In this document: positions 7,659-18,295 of the stretch, one piece after another
How positions within the stretch are numbered: the first letter of the stretch is position 1
Layout: the number at the start of each line of letters is the position of its first letter
Source: Clostridia bacterium
GTDB lineage: Bacteria > Bacillota > Clostridia > Christensenellales > Borkfalkiaceae
Direction of reading: 5' to 3'
Length of the DNA stretch: 46,367 bases
Assembly (NCBI GenBank): GCA_017886895.1
Contig: JAGHJD010000050.1
Coordinates: 1-46,367, forward strand
The notes under the pieces: model-generated
Told to the model about the DNA's origin: nothing
Database searches by the model: none
Seen by the model: the letters and a program-made list of their open reading frames with translations, nothing else
Translations under genes and position numbers: made by a program

Positions 7659-8479
7659 TGCTGCGCTATAAACTTATAGCATCCGATTTTGACGGAACAT
7701 TGCGCCGTTCGGACGGCACCGTCTCGGAGGAGACGAAGCGGGTTGTCAACGAATTTATTTCACGCGGCGGCATATTTGCCATCTGCACGGGGCGCATGAC
7801 GCTGTCCATTCTGCCGCATGCGCGCGCACTCGGGCTGAAGGGACTGCTTGTTGCCTACCAAGGTGGCGTCATCCGCGATATAGAGAGCGGGGCGTTTTTG
7901 CGCGATCTGCGTATCCCGAACGCGGATGCGGTCATGCTCTGCGAATTTTTGGAAAAAGACGGCTATCACGTTCACGCTTACGACGGGGACAGGTTTTTTG
8001 TCAATGCGGACGACGGATTCCGCTCTATGTATGAACAGATCTGCCGCGTGCACGGTATCCTTACGCCGCAGAACATTTCGGAAACGGTGAAACGGGAAGG
8101 GTTCGGCGCAAACAAGATCGTCGTGATGTGCGAGCCGTCAAAGCACGACGGTTTGCTTTCCCGCTGTCTTGCGGCGTTCGGGGACCGTTTTTACATTACG
8201 TCCAGCATGGACCAGATGGTCGAGATCGCCCCGAAGGGGGCGGACAAAGGCGGCGCCTTGGAATTTCTTGCACGGCATTATACTGTTCCTGTTGCGGAGA
8301 CGATCGGTGTCGGCGATAATTTCAACGATCTGCCGCTCATTCAAAGGGCGGGGCTTGGCGTTGCGATCGGGAACGCCGTAGAAGAACTGAAAGCAGCCGC
8401 GGGATTTACGACGAAGAGCTGCGATGAGGACGGCGTTGCGTACGTCATCCGTAAATTTGCATTGGGGGAAGAGGAATGA
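7658..8479 (+). CDS. Cof-type HAD-superfamily hydrolase
   Basis: ASDFDGTLRRSDGTVS; GVGDNFNDLPLIQRAGLGVAIGNAVEELK. Confidence 0.93.
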   Translation: MLRYKLIASDFDGTLRRSDGTVSEETKRVVNEFISRGGIFAICTGRMTLSILPHARALGLKGLLVAYQGGVIRDIESGAFLRDLRIPNADAVMLCEFLEKDGYHVHAYDGDRFFVNADDGFRSMYEQICRVHGILTPQNISETVKREGFGANKIVVMCEPSKHDGLLSRCLAAFGDRFYITSSMDQMVEIAPKGADKGGALEFLARHYTVPVAETIGVGDNFNDLPLIQRAGLGVAIGNAVEELKAAAGFTTKSCDEDGVAYVIRKFALGEEE

Positions 8480-9390
8480 ACGAGCCGGAAACGATCTTAT
8501 TGGAAAATTTTTGCGGCGATCTCGGGCTGGAGATCGTATTCGCGGGGCGCGGCAGGCTGACGCTGACCTCGTATAGCGTCACGCGGCCGGGGCTGCAGTT
8601 TGCGGGCTTTTTTAAATATTTCGACTCTTCCCGCATCCTTGTTCTCGGCAATTCAGAGTATGAATTTCTGCGCGACCTGCCGCAGGAGGTGCGCCGCGAG
8701 CGGATCAAGACGCTGCTTTCGTACAGCGATATTCCCTGCATCATTCTCGCGCGCGACCTGCCCGTGCTGCAGGAGCTTGTGGAAGAGGCGCGTTTGACGG
8801 GGTGTCCGATCCTGCGTACGGATAAGATGACAACGGTCATTCTGAACGACCTGTTCTTCTATCTCAACAAGCATCTGGCGCCCATACTTACCATGCACGG
8901 CGTGCTCGTCGACGTCTCGGGCGTCGGCATCCTGCTCACGGGTCACAGCGGTGTCGGAAAGAGCGAAACCGCCATGGAGCTGATCAAGCGCGGGCACCGC
9001 CTCGTTGCGGATGACAGCGTGATCATCAAGCGCGTCTCAGACGAGCTTCTCGGTTCTTCGCCCGAAACGATCCGCTACTTTATGGAGCTGCGCGGCATCG
9101 GGATCATCAATATCAAGAACATGTACGGTTCGGGATCCATACTCGATGAAAAGAAGATCGATCTCGTCATGGAGCTGGAAAATTGGGAAGAGGGGAAAGT
9201 ATATGACCGTCTCGGAGAAGGGACGCTCTATGAAACGATCCTCGGTGTGAAGGTCATGAAACATGTAATCCCCGTAAAGCCCGGGCGCAACCTCTCCATC
9301 ATCATTGAAGTCGCCGCGCGCAACTTCAGACTGAAGAGCATGGGATATGACGCCGCACAGGAACTCATCATGCGAACGATCGGAAGGTGA
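8476..9390 (+). CDS. hprK: HPr kinase/phosphorylase
   Basis: P-loop GHSGVGKSETAMELIKRGHRLVADDSVIIK; MELRGIGIINIKNMYG. Confidence 0.97.
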   Translation: MNEPETILLENFCGDLGLEIVFAGRGRLTLTSYSVTRPGLQFAGFFKYFDSSRILVLGNSEYEFLRDLPQEVRRERIKTLLSYSDIPCIILARDLPVLQELVEEARLTGCPILRTDKMTTVILNDLFFYLNKHLAPILTMHGVLVDVSGVGILLTGHSGVGKSETAMELIKRGHRLVADDSVIIKRVSDELLGSSPETIRYFMELRGIGIINIKNMYGSGSILDEKKIDLVMELENWEEGKVYDRLGEGTLYETILGVKVMKHVIPVKPGRNLSIIIEVAARNFRLKSMGYDAAQELIMRTIGR

Positions 9391-9438: not shown

Positions 9439-9483
9439 TCGCGAACTACTATGCGCGCAGTTTGGATAATATAATAATTGCGT

Positions 9484-10494
9484 ATGAAAAAATTTCTGCG
9501 CCGTGCGCGCGTACCCGTTCTGTGCGTCCTGTTGGCGGCAGTCGTCCTTTTGTGTGCGGTGGCGGCATATCCCGCCCTGTGCGGGCGTGAGACGGCTGAA
9601 AACGCCTCATACAGCGGGATCCTGCGTGTGTGGCAGATAGACAGCTTTGAGGGCGGAACGGGGTCGAGAGCGGCGTTTCTGACGGCGTGCGCGCGTTCGT
9701 TCGAGTCTGAAAATCAAGGCGTAAAGCTGCTTGTTACCTATCATACGGCAGAGAGCGCCGCGAACGCGGCTGCGGGAGGGGAGTACCCCGATATACTGTC
9801 TTTCGGGGCGGGAACGGATTTTGCCGCGGATGCCGCTCTGCCGCAGGCATGGGAAAAATTTGCCGCGGGGCTGCTCGGCGGCGAAGCGTGCGCCGTGCCG
9901 TGGTGCCGCGGTCAATACTTTCTCTTCACCGTCGAAGGGGATTTTTCTGACGTTTCCGGCGGGAATACAGTCATCTCGCAGGGAAAAGGCGCAAATCCAG
10001 CTGCGGCGGCGTATGCCGAAGGACTGACGGGCGAATATACGGTCCTCGATTCACTCGCCGCTTATACGGCTTTTCTGCGGGGGGAGTATGTGTATATGCT
10101 CGGCAGTCAGCGCGACGTCTATCGGTTTGCGGCGCGGGATGTTGCCGTGCGGGCACAGCCGATGACGGGATTTTGCGATCTGTGGCAGTATGCAGCCGTC
10201 TGCACGCGGGAAGAGGACAGGGCGGATGCGGCGCTCGGATTTGTGCGGTATTTGCTGTCGGAAGAAGTGCAGAGCAGCCTTTGGCGCATAGGGATGCTGC
10301 CCGTCTCAGGCTCGGCGTATGAGCAGGGGGCGGAAAGTATGTATGCGGCGCAGCAGGAGACCCCGCAGAAGACGGTCAGCGCGTTTCTGACTTCGCAGAC
10401 GGTCAAACTGCTGCGGGAAAGCGCCGCTTCAGCGTTAAACGGAGACGAAAGCGGCGCAAAAAATTTGGAAAAATATCTGCTGGAAGCATTGTAA
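9484..10494 (+). CDS. Extracellular solute-binding protein-like, N-terminally anchored, orphan (no permease nearby)
   Basis: N-terminal signal/TM segment (ARVPVLCVLLAAVVLLCAVAAYP) followed by SBP-type features (GILRVWQIDSFEGGTGSRAAFLTACARSFE; EYPDILSFG; ALGFVRYLLSEEVQ). Confidence 0.72.
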   Translation: MKKFLRRARVPVLCVLLAAVVLLCAVAAYPALCGRETAENASYSGILRVWQIDSFEGGTGSRAAFLTACARSFESENQGVKLLVTYHTAESAANAAAGGEYPDILSFGAGTDFAADAALPQAWEKFAAGLLGGEACAVPWCRGQYFLFTVEGDFSDVSGGNTVISQGKGANPAAAAYAEGLTGEYTVLDSLAAYTAFLRGEYVYMLGSQRDVYRFAARDVAVRAQPMTGFCDLWQYAAVCTREEDRADAALGFVRYLLSEEVQSSLWRIGMLPVSGSAYEQGAESMYAAQQETPQKTVSAFLTSQTVKLLRESAASALNGDESGAKNLEKYLLEAL

Positions 10495-10517
10495 AAAGAG
10501 TCGGTTTGCTGTATAAT
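10489..10517 (+). promoter_or_regulatory. Promoter for murB, overlapping the SBP stop codon
   Basis: TTGTAA-N17-TATAAT. Confidence 0.7.
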
Positions 10518-10532
10518 AGGGAGGAGCGGAAA

Positions 10533-11429
10533 ATGTCCCGAAATACTGACTGCATTGCTGAATGGTTTGCCGATCTGCCGCAGAAACGCCCGTTTTCTTT
10601 TCGGGCGGCAACGACGATCGGCGCGGGCGGGACGGCGCCTGCGGCGCTCTATCCGCGCAGCGAAGCGGAGTTTGCGGAGACGGTGGCGCGCCTGGAGGCG
10701 CAAGGGATCCCTTTTTGCGTGCTCGGCTGCGGCTCCAACGTGCTCGCTTCCGATAAAGGGTTCGGCGGAGCCGTCATTAAGACAGACAGAATGGAGACGC
10801 TGCGCCTGTTGCCGCAGGGGATAGAGGCGGCGTGCGGCGTCAGGATTGCGAGATTGCTCTCTTTTGCCGCGGCGAATCATTGCGGCGGTTTGGAATTTCT
10901 CGCGGGCATTCCCGCAAGTACGGGCGGTGCCGTTTTCATGAATGCGGGGGCGTGCGGGAAATTCGCCGCCGAACGTGTTTTGTCGGTCAGGGCGCTGTAT
11001 CGCGGTTCGGTCATGGAAATGACGGCTGAGGAATGCGCGTTCTCCTATAAGCATTCTCTGTTTATGGATGAGCCGATATATGTTTTATCAGCGGTATTCC
11101 AAACGGTCTGCGGCGATAAGCAGAGTATTCTGCGTGAGATAAAACGCGTTTTAGTGCGAAGATCCCGCCTGCCGCGCGGTAAAAGCATGGGGTGCGTGTT
11201 TAAGAACCCGAGCGGCTGTTCGGCGGGGGAGCTGATCGAGCAGGCGGGGCTGAAAGGCGCTTTTATCGGAGATGCTGTCGTGGCGAGGGAGCATGCAAAT
11301 TTTATCCTCAACCGCGGCGGCGCGACCGCGTCCGAGATCCGTTCACTCATCGAGCATGTTCGGGCGCGCGTCTTTGAAAATAGCGCCGTCACGCTGGAAG
11401 AGGAGATCCGCTACATAGGAGAATTCTGA
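10533..11429 (+). CDS. murB: UDP-N-acetylenolpyruvoylglucosamine reductase
   Basis: TTIGAGGTA; VLGCGSNVLASDKGFGG; GLEFLAGIPASTGGAVFMNAGACG; GCVFKNPSG; SD gggaggag. Confidence 0.96.
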   Translation: MSRNTDCIAEWFADLPQKRPFSFRAATTIGAGGTAPAALYPRSEAEFAETVARLEAQGIPFCVLGCGSNVLASDKGFGGAVIKTDRMETLRLLPQGIEAACGVRIARLLSFAAANHCGGLEFLAGIPASTGGAVFMNAGACGKFAAERVLSVRALYRGSVMEMTAEECAFSYKHSLFMDEPIYVLSAVFQTVCGDKQSILREIKRVLVRRSRLPRGKSMGCVFKNPSGCSAGELIEQAGLKGAFIGDAVVAREHANFILNRGGATASEIRSLIEHVRARVFENSAVTLEEEIRYIGEF

Positions 11430-12208
11430 TGCAGCTTACGGGCGATTATCATACGCATACCGTGTACAGCCACGGGAGCGGTACCGTGCTTGAGAACGCT
11501 CTGCAGGCGAAGGCGCGCGGTCTGCGCGAGATCGCGATCACCGATCACGGGTTCGGGCAGATGGCGTTCGGTCTGCGGCACCGCCGCATGCCGCAGCTTA
11601 TCAGGGACTGCAGAGAAGCGACGGAGCTTACGGGCGTAAAAGTCTATGTCGGCATTGAGGCGAATCTGCTCGGTGAAAGCGGATTTACGGATCTGAAAGA
11701 AAAGGATTATAAGGATTTTGACGTCTTTTTGATGGGGATCCACCGCTTTGTTCGGTTCAAACCCTTTGTGCCGGGCATGTGGAACATGTTTTTCCGCAAC
11801 TGGCTGCACACGGTGCGGAAAAAAGGGGCCGGTGCGGGGTTGGTCCGCTACAATACGCAGGCGCTCATCCATTGTATCGAAAAATATCCGATCGATGCCG
11901 TGACGCATCTGAACTATTTAAGTTTCTGCAACGTGGCGGAGGTCGCAAAAGCCGCGCGGGACAACGGCACCTATATCGAGCTGAATTCCAAAAAGACGCA
12001 TTTATCCGATGAAGAACTTGCCGCCGTGCGCGATACGGGCGTGCGGTTCATCATCGATTCAGATGCGCATTCGCCGGACCGGGTCGGGGATACCAAGCTC
12101 GTCGACGAACTTCTTTCGCGGGTCGATGTGCCGCGTGAGAGGATCGACAATATAGACGGGCGAACGCCGCGGTTCAGATTCAGGGAATACAAAGAGAGAA
12201 ATTTATAA
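11429..12208 (+). CDS. PHP-domain phosphoesterase
   Basis: GDYHTHTVYSHGSGTVLENALQAKARGLREIAITDHG; DSDAHSPDRVGD. Confidence 0.93.
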   Translation: MQLTGDYHTHTVYSHGSGTVLENALQAKARGLREIAITDHGFGQMAFGLRHRRMPQLIRDCREATELTGVKVYVGIEANLLGESGFTDLKEKDYKDFDVFLMGIHRFVRFKPFVPGMWNMFFRNWLHTVRKKGAGAGLVRYNTQALIHCIEKYPIDAVTHLNYLSFCNVAEVAKAARDNGTYIELNSKKTHLSDEELAAVRDTGVRFIIDSDAHSPDRVGDTKLVDELLSRVDVPRERIDNIDGRTPRFRFREYKERNL

Positions 12209-12209
12209 A

Positions 12210-13175
12210 GTGCCGAACGGGAATTTTACGGGAGAGATCAAGCGCGAACTCATCCGCCGCGGGTTTGAAAACGCCTGCTGCAAGACGGCGGCGCTCTCCG
12301 CCTTTTTGCGCGTAACGGGCAGCATTGTCCGCAGCGGGCAGGGCGTCGGGTTTGAATTTGCGACGGAAAGCGAGCGCGTTGCGGAATATTTCCTAGGGCT
12401 CGCAGAGGAACAGTTCGGCGCCGAACTCAAGATCGTGCAGGCAGGCACCGACCGCCGCAGCGGGCGCGGGCGTTTGGTGTTCCGCTGCCTGTCGGAGCGC
12501 TCGCTTTTTATTCTGTTTGAGCTCGGCATTGCCGAGCGGGACGGGGATTCGCTTGCGCTGCGCTTCAATATCGGCGAGTATCTGCTTGAAAATACCTGCT
12601 GTAAGCGTGCGTTCATAGCGGGGGCTTTCTGCGGGAGCGGGAGCTGTGTCTTGCCCAAAGAGAGCGGCGCGGGCGGCTATCATCTTGAGATCGTTTTTTC
12701 GTATCCCTCTCTTGCGGAAGAGTTTTGTGCGCTGCTCGAAACGTTTGACGTTCTTGCGCGCTGCACGCAGCGGAAGAACGAATATATCGTCTACCTGAAG
12801 AGCAGGGAGAGCATTTCGGATTTTCTTGCGCTCATTGGGGCGGAGCGTTCACTGACTCTTTTAGACGAAGTGTCGCGGCAGAAAGATACGCGCAACCGCA
12901 TCAACCGCATAGCGAACTGCATGCAGAAAAATTATGACAAGAGCGTGCTCGCTTCCGTGGCGCAGGTCCGCGCCATCGAATATATCGGTTTGCACGGCGG
13001 GCTGGAACAGTTGGATGCGGGGCAGCGTGCGGTCGCCGAGGCGCGCCTCGCCGATAAAGAGGCCTCTCTGTCGGAGCTTGCAAATCGTCTCGGCATCTCG
13101 AAAAGCTGCATCAATCACAGGTTCAGGAAATTATTGAAAACAGCCGAAGATATGGCGGAGGAGAAAGATGAATAA
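12210..13175 (+). CDS. whiA: WhiA-type sporulation/cell-division regulator
   Basis: N-terminal F..EIKRELIRR...CCKTAALSAFLRVTGSI, RAFIAGAFCGSGSC, and C-terminal HTH ELANRLGISKSCINHRFRKL. GTG start. Confidence 0.95.
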   Translation: MPNGNFTGEIKRELIRRGFENACCKTAALSAFLRVTGSIVRSGQGVGFEFATESERVAEYFLGLAEEQFGAELKIVQAGTDRRSGRGRLVFRCLSERSLFILFELGIAERDGDSLALRFNIGEYLLENTCCKRAFIAGAFCGSGSCVLPKESGAGGYHLEIVFSYPSLAEEFCALLETFDVLARCTQRKNEYIVYLKSRESISDFLALIGAERSLTLLDEVSRQKDTRNRINRIANCMQKNYDKSVLASVAQVRAIEYIGLHGGLEQLDAGQRAVAEARLADKEASLSELANRLGISKSCINHRFRKLLKTAEDMAEEKDE

Positions 13176-13419
13176 AGCGGGATTTACATATCGCAAGGAC
13201 AGTTATAATGCCTACGACGCACAGCGCATCGTGTTCGAGGCGAGCAAATATAAGAGCGAGATCACCTTTGCTGACGGCAACAAGCGTGCAAACGCCAAGA
13301 GCATCATCGGGCTTCTCTCCATGAAGTTCCTCAAGGGCGACGAGTATCTCATCTACGCCGAGGGGCAGGACAGCAAGAGGGCGGCGGAAGGGCTTGCCGC
13401 ATTTGTCGAGAAGCTTTAA
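13168..13419 (+). CDS. HPr/Crh-like protein lacking the catalytic His15
   Basis: MNKAGFTYRKDSYNAYDAQRIVFEASKYKSEITFADGNKRANAKSIIGLLSMKFLKGDEYLIYAEGQDSKRAAEGLAAFVEKL. Ser46 region NAKSIIGLLSM kept; GLHARPA position reads SYNAYDA. Confidence 0.93.
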   Translation: MNKAGFTYRKDSYNAYDAQRIVFEASKYKSEITFADGNKRANAKSIIGLLSMKFLKGDEYLIYAEGQDSKRAAEGLAAFVEKL

Positions 13420-13519
13420 AAGAGACATTGCGGTGTCTGCGCCGAGAAACGGCGCGTCGATATTTTTTTGCAGGAGCGTCCGGACAGGCCGCTCCGCTGT
13501 TTGACGTTTGGGAAAAACT

Positions 13520-17332: not shown

Positions 17333-18295
17333 ATGAAAAGGATCGGTGTGCTGACCAGCGGCGGCGATGCGCCGGGGATGAACGCCTGCATCAGAGCTGT
17401 CGTCAGGACGGCGAAATATTTCGGGATGGAGATCTTCGGGATCCGCCAGGGATATGCTGGCCTGATCAATGACGATATGGTCCCCATGGAGATGCGCAGT
17501 GTTTCCGATATAGTGCAGCGCGGCGGCACCATGCTGCGCACTGCACGTTGCGTGGAGATGTATACCGTTGAAGGGCAGAAGCAGGCCGTCAAAACGCTGA
17601 ATGAGCACGGGATCGAAGGCCTCGTCGTCATCGGCGGCGACGGTTCGTTCCGCGGGGCGAAGTGCCTGAGCGAGGAGTACGGGATCCCTACGATCGGCAT
17701 CCCCGGTACGATCGACAACGACCTCGAATATACCGATTATACGTTGGGGTTTGACACTGCAGTCAATACCTGTCTCGACATCATCAACAAGCTGCGCGAT
17801 ACGATGACTTCGCATGAGCGTATCAGCGTTGTTGAAGTTATGGGGCGGCGCTGCGGCGACATCGCGCTTTATTCGGGGATCGCAAGCGGCGCGGAGATCA
17901 TCATCGTGCCCGAGATCGCGTATGACATGGAGGACGTTGTCCTGCGCATCAACCGCAGCCGCGCGAACGGCAAGCACTCCAATATCATAGTTCTGGCGGA
18001 GGGCGTCTCCACGGCGGAAGAGTTCTCCAAAAAGCTGCAGGAGATGACGACCTATTCCGTGCGCGGAACGACGATTGGGCATGTGCAGCGCGGCGGTTCG
18101 CCCTCCATGGCGGACAGGATGCTTGCGGCGCAGTTCGGCAACAAGGCGGTGCGCCTTCTGCGTGACGGGATCGGCAACCGCGTTGTCGGCATTCACAAAA
18201 ATGAGATCATCGACCTCGACATTATCGAGGCGGTCAGCATGAAGAAGAAGTTCAATTACGAACTTTATGAGACGCTGCAGATGATCTCCATGTAA
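17333..18295 (+). CDS. pfkA: 6-phosphofructokinase
   Basis: KRIGVLTSGGDAPGMNACIRAVVR; VIGGDGSFRGA; GIPGTIDND. Confidence 0.98.
   Translation: MKRIGVLTSGGDAPGMNACIRAVVRTAKYFGMEIFGIRQGYAGLINDDMVPMEMRSVSDIVQRGGTMLRTARCVEMYTVEGQKQAVKTLNEHGIEGLVVIGGDGSFRGAKCLSEEYGIPTIGIPGTIDNDLEYTDYTLGFDTAVNTCLDIINKLRDTMTSHERISVVEVMGRRCGDIALYSGIASGAEIIIVPEIAYDMEDVVLRINRSRANGKHSNIIVLAEGVSTAEEFSKKLQEMTTYSVRGTTIGHVQRGGSPSMADRMLAAQFGNKAVRLLRDGIGNRVVGIHKNEIIDLDIIEAVSMKKKFNYELYETLQMISM

Follow-up and report, generated by a model that had tools for sequence, protein, structure and literature searches.

The window (the whole stretch of 46,367 nucleotides that was analysed) carries, directly 3' of whiA, a small gene that encodes an HPr-like protein and is here called A. 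The features at this locus are as follows.

8476..9390 (+): hprK, HPr(Ser) kinase/phosphorylase with an intact P-loop, GHSGVGKS (TIGR00679, 347 bits, cut-off 240)
12210..13175 (+): whiA, sharing its last 8 nt with the 5' end of A (TIGR00647, 188 bits, cut-off 44.1)
13168..13419 (+): gene A, encoding 83 aa with an HPr fold and no phosphotransfer histidine (PTS-HPr profile, Crh as best PDB sequences, AlphaFold2 model)
13204..13224 (+): YNAYDAQ, residues 13 to 19 of A, replacing the HPr active-site loop (A-Y-D-A-Q in 34/34 relatives)
13300..13302 (+): codon AGC, Ser45 of A, equivalent to HPr Ser46, the HprK target site (Ser in 34/34 A proteins)
13438..13456 (+): terminator-like stem with a T run on its 3' side, between A and dnaE (pattern match, weak)
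17333..18295 (+): pfkA-type 6-phosphofructokinase (Pfam PF00365, 369 bits)

A sequence-only reading of this DNA had noted an hprK gene with an intact P-loop about 4 kb upstream and the linkage of A to whiA, and both were confirmed: hprK (347 bits with TIGR00679) ends at position 9390, 3.8 kb upstream of A, and A, overlapping whiA by 8 nt, holds the same position in 34/34 Borkfalkia loci. On the 3' side of A lie dnaE and pfkA, and a pfkB-type kinase gene is found, like pfkA, downstream in the window. The pfkA product makes fructose-1,6-bisphosphate, the classical effector of HprK. The terminator-like stem folded no better than shuffled sequences, and a promoter scan gave no promoter-like site on the + strand. 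Positions 10506 to 13175 hold, in direct succession, murB, a gene with a PHP domain, and whiA; rapZ and yvcK, often found 5' of whiA in Firmicutes, are absent between them. A solute-binding-protein-like ORF (SBP_bac_11, 30 bits) occupies positions 9478-10494, between hprK and murB.

An HPr-like protein without the active-site histidine

The ORF at 13168-13419 (+), 83 aa long as previously described, matched the Pfam PTS-HPr profile with 57.1 bits (E 2e-15, cut-off 23). None of the NCBIfam HPr or Crh-type models matched A over its curated cut-off; the best-scoring one was NF010354/PRK13782 (51.2 bits versus a cut-off of 123), which has the printed description "HPr family phosphocarrier protein" and which we take to be the Crh model. 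In a gapless alignment of A with HPr, His15 corresponds to Asn14, Arg17 to Tyr16, Pro18 to Asp17, and Ser46 to Ser45, which sits in NAKSIIGLLSM. The substitutions proposed in the sequence-only reading (His15 to Asn, Arg17 to Tyr, and Pro18 to Asp, with the Ser46 region intact) thus held, and the active-site loop, which reads YNAYDA, contains no histidine. When PDB sequences were ranked by similarity to A, Crh of Bacillus subtilis came first, ahead of all HPrs (best matches 1zvv, 1mo1, and 2ak7, all Crh). An AlphaFold2 model of A, built from 34 relatives, had HPr topology (mean pLDDT, 96.7), with helix 1 beginning directly past the altered loop and helix 2 directly past Ser45. Its PDB neighbours in Foldseek were HPr and Crh, with a TM-score of about 0.9, so that the structure check, too, came out in favour of an HPr fold.

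Conservation of A and related whiA-linked proteins

Named close relatives place the window in the genus Candidatus Borkfalkia (Christensenellales). Each of the 18 genus members searched has A after whiA, and in 34/34 named Borkfalkia loci A lay directly 3' of whiA, its start falling between -11 and +20 nt relative to the whiA stop. The residue at HPr position 15 was Asn in 31 and Asp in 3 of these 34 proteins and His in none. In place of the active-site loop the 34 loci carry [ST][YF][ND]AYDAQ (position 13 being Thr or Ser in 32 and Asp or Ala in the other 2), whereas NAKS[IF] has been retained. Invariant in 34/34 are, in HPr numbering, Ala16-Tyr17-Asp18-Ala19-Gln20, Phe24, Lys45, Ser46, and Gly49. 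Ser45 of A and its flank NAKS are without exception, and so is a rebuilt helix-1 face formed by Tyr17, Asp18, Gln20, and Phe24 (Tyr16, Asp17, Gln19, and Phe23 in the numbering of A). Pairwise dN/dS was about 0.02 to 0.16 where dS, which is near saturation, could be estimated. Since synonymous change far exceeds non-synonymous change and the motifs are invariant, A is, judged by these patterns, a maintained protein and neither a chance ORF nor a decaying ptsH.

Across Clostridia, an HPr-like gene adjoined whiA in 22 of the 110 whiA loci surveyed. His15 was kept in 6 of these 22 proteins and lost in 16, its place being taken by Q, E, K, T, R, Y, N, or D, and Ser46 and Arg or Lys at position 17 were present in 22/22. 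Two of the 16 (L281 and L282, reading GLKAKA) belong to a sister family within the order of A, and EI was absent from the genomes of 11/16. The premise that the gene after whiA is often an ordinary ptsH was therefore not borne out in the Clostridia sampled, where 16/22 are without His15; a histidine-less, serine-keeping protein beside whiA is, by its sequence features, common in this class. What is distinctive of A, as far as these alignments tell, is the loss of Arg17 together with the invariant Tyr-Asp-x-Gln-x-x-x-Phe face. An earlier survey reported HPr without EI in few species only (PMC2405797), and our literature searches found no paper on histidine-less HPr proteins in Borkfalkia. A rumen Clostridiales MAG encodes a further HPr-like protein (L109:3204-3386), whose loop region contains SHTDDHEFGLAT and which also carries RANAKSIMG; it forms a very long branch and was not seen beside whiA.

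PTS, HprK, and CcpA in the genome, genus, and family

The source genome, of which the window is one contig, is a MAG of 1.63 Mb (81% complete), and the family survey covered 151 genomes, 18 of them in the genus. Only two PTS-HPr matches were found in the source genome, A and a 74-aa protein on another contig (B), so that a search for a second HPr with GLHARP returned only a protein that is itself histidine-less. No EI was detected in this 81% complete genome, where the search yielded a single weak fragment (18.8 bits versus a cut-off of 341.7), which we rejected as EI since it reads as pyruvate phosphate dikinase cut by the contig end. EI scored over the cut-off in 4/18 genomes of the genus, leaving 14/18 without it, and in 6/151 of the family; hprK was present in 18/18 and 76/151, respectively. 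One Borkfalkia genome (G085:C16; L035, L207) has an EI over the cut-off, near a contig start, with no canonical HPr found.

A CcpA (TIGR01481) over the cut-off was found in 0/151 family genomes, an absence that rests on a strict equivalog cut-off. The check for CcpA thus gave a divided answer, as weaker LacI-family relatives are present (the CcpA model scores them at up to 195 bits in the family; four such proteins in the source genome, 81% complete). In three genomes of the genus (G028, G056, and G093; 91-95% complete) there was no match to the CcpA model at E<=1e-20, yet A was kept. Five canonical HPrs with GIHARP were found in the family (L004-L008), each within about 110 nt of ptsI; Ser46 is lost in all, position 46 being Arg in four and Gly in one. 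With Ser46 missing from the canonical HPrs and kept in A and B, this suggests that the functions of His15 and Ser46 are split between proteins.

A second histidine-less protein beside DUF4364

L002:1462-1683 (contig C86 of the source genome): B, 74-aa His-less HPr-like protein

B has no histidine at the active site, keeps the serine in DAKSILG, and has a shorter N-terminus than A. It stood beside a DUF4364 gene in 74/74 family loci examined, the farthest by about 0.5 kb. Across the 151 family genomes, an HPr-like protein and hprK were both present in 73, hprK only in 3, an HPr-like gene only in 1, and neither in 74; as genomes of one family are related, Fisher p-values for this co-occurrence overstate the evidence. 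The pattern does not reflect one ancestral split, since hprK is both present and absent within single genera. The three genomes with hprK only are also without the whole DUF4364 locus, which assembly gaps can explain. DUF4364 itself is present in 145/151 genomes, so it is B, and not DUF4364, that follows hprK. In the class survey (146 genomes), 82/82 genomes with B have hprK, and in 6/11 loci from beyond the family B and DUF4364 are neighbours. The structure model of DUF4364 has an N-terminal winged helix (pLDDT, 87.4), with weak PadR/MarR-like structural neighbours (best E, 6e-3), and the literature searched made no mention of DUF4364. It is possible that B and DUF4364 form a CcpA-independent output of HprK.

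Origin of A

In a tree of 79 HPr-family proteins (80 residues), A formed a single clade, whose branch has a length of 2.07 changes per site, with a sister that the tree did not settle. AU tests of three placements of A gave p values of 0.73, 0.74, and 0.13, rejecting none and accepting alike A with the sister-family histidine-less whiA-linked protein and A with canonical HPr. The sequence-only claim of an independent conversion is not upheld given the long branch and the accepted rival placements, and we therefore claim no origin for A. B lies on a very long separate branch, which split off with 100/100 support, and a duplication of B as the source of A is not suggested by the tree. L251 (GLNAKT), nested among GLHARP forms, looks like another, recent loss of the histidine.

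Discussion

We consider it likely that A, an HPr-like protein, serves in signalling only, with a Crh-like mode of action and a partner other than CcpA. Of the readings weighed, this one, whose signalling-only role was already advanced in the sequence-only reading, is best supported: A has no histidine, keeps the serine, is whiA linked, and occurs with hprK where no EI was found, and across the genus the histidine is absent and the serine present in 34/34 loci, with hprK in 18/18 genomes. In the mechanism that we infer, for phosphorylation and sensing as for the existence and nature of the partner, HprK would phosphorylate Ser45 of A when glycolytic intermediates and ATP are high and would remove the phosphate when they fall. 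A itself would be unable to accept phosphate from PEP, as it has no active-site histidine and an EI was not detected. Affinity for a partner would differ between the two states, and the partner would recognise A by two surfaces, the Ser45 helix and the rebuilt face of helix 1 (Tyr16, Asp17, Gln19, and Phe23). Because Arg17 is gone and no CcpA scores over the cut-off, the partner is probably a protein other than CcpA.

The nearest competing explanation makes A an ordinary Crh co-repressor, which, phosphorylated on the serine, would bind, at cre sites, to a CcpA-like member of the LacI family. In sequence A matches Crh best, and candidate regulators exist, in that LacI-family proteins score up to 195 bits in the family and four are encoded in the source genome. 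Arg17, however, is a CcpA contact in known HPr and Crh complexes and is Tyr in 34/34 A proteins; moreover, 0/151 genomes pass the CcpA cut-off, and three (G028, G056, and G093) keep A with no match at E<=1e-20. We regard this explanation as unlikely even with the precedent that CcpA homologues were proposed as partners of the Clostridium cellulolyticum Crh-like protein (PMC3656788). A direct action of A on a metabolic enzyme, comparable to that of Crh on methylglyoxal synthase, would have a precedent in B. subtilis (PMC13130090, citing Landmann 2011), and the glycolysis genes pfkA and a pfkB-type kinase gene lie downstream in the window, but no direct link was found, and such a role seems very improbable.

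The helix-1 face of HPr docks partners, HprK among them. Since A presents a new face (Tyr, Asp, Gln, and Phe) where HPr docks HprK, HprK might no longer bind A, and A may have left HprK control; this is the weakest step of the proposal, and the invariant serine argues against it. In the extreme case, A would no longer be an HprK substrate at all and would act as a static protein-binding adaptor with an HPr fold, for example for WhiA. The rebuilt and invariant helix-1 face, the tight whiA linkage in 34/34 loci (often overlapping), several long A loci without hprK, and the distance of about 130 kb between A and hprK in G056 speak for such an adaptor, whereas the invariance of Ser45 and NAKS in 34/34 A proteins, while the phosphotransfer HPrs of the family lost Ser46, and the presence of hprK in 18/18 genus members with A speak against it; we give it a small chance, slightly below that of a Crh co-repressor. 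Nor is A the sole candidate target of HprK, since the source genome also encodes the histidine-less, serine-keeping B, and B, whose occurrence in the family follows that of hprK more closely than the occurrence of A does, could be the real HprK substrate.

In most accounts, HprK serves the sugar PTS as an accessory and acts through CcpA. As 63/115 Clostridia genomes with hprK are without EI, HprK must have another purpose in many gut bacteria. Returning to A as a signalling protein, we put forward, as a tentative and rather doubtful generalization, that in gut Clostridia without a PTS HprK might be a stand-alone energy switch, having as its only substrates A and B (the latter beside the predicted winged-helix protein DUF4364), reaching new CcpA-independent partners through the rebuilt helix-1 face, with transport HPrs devoid of Ser46. 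A and B are the obvious candidate HprK substrates and suggest that His15 and Ser46, the two classical sites of HPr, are divided among separate proteins; what HprK controls without PTS and CcpA becomes directly testable.

Comparison with known systems

The crh gene lies beside whiA in B. subtilis. Like Crh of B. subtilis and Geobacillus, A has an HPr fold, has lost His15, keeps the Ser46 region, and is whiA linked with hprK present. Crh, however, keeps Arg17-Pro18, where A has Tyr-Asp (Ala-Tyr-Asp at positions 16 to 18 in 34/34), and it operates alongside a complete PTS, with HPr, EI, and CcpA present, whereas in the 81% complete host genome of A no EI was found and no CcpA scored over the cut-off. 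The earlier designation as a Crh analogue is therefore apt for the missing histidine, the kept serine, and the whiA linkage and less so for Arg17, which is also lost, and for CcpA, none of which scores over the cut-off. The best reading of the sequence is that A would work like Crh; we do not file it as Crh, because it lacks Arg17-Pro18 and stays below the curated model cut-off.

In Bacillaceae, Crh is phosphorylated by HprK (PMC13130090, citing Galinier 1997); that paper, with references therein, describes Crh as an HprK substrate, a CcpA co-effector, and an MgsA inhibitor, the inhibition of methylglyoxal synthase in B. subtilis being exerted by unphosphorylated Crh (citing Landmann 2011). 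Outside Bacillaceae, a Crh match is on record for T. saccharolyticum (PMC3526391), and C. cellulolyticum has a Crh-like protein, Ccel_0806, for which CcpA homologues were proposed as partners, with an HPr orthologue and EII reported lacking (PMC3656788).

With the 16 histidine-less proteins of other Clostridia, A shares whiA linkage, loss of His15, and retention of Ser46; they have Arg or Lys at position 17 and Ala at 20, which in A are Tyr and Gln, and A differs further in its Phe at position 24. B resembles A in having no active-site histidine, in keeping the serine (DAKSILG), and in coming from a genome in which no EI was found, and differs from it in its shorter N-terminus and in adjoining DUF4364 instead of whiA. 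By its features A is not a ptsH phosphocarrier, having no GxHARP His15 and no EI that could be found in its source genome (81% complete). The canonical HPrs of the family belong to the same fold family as A and, with GIHARP kept beside ptsI and Ser46 lost, are its mirror image.
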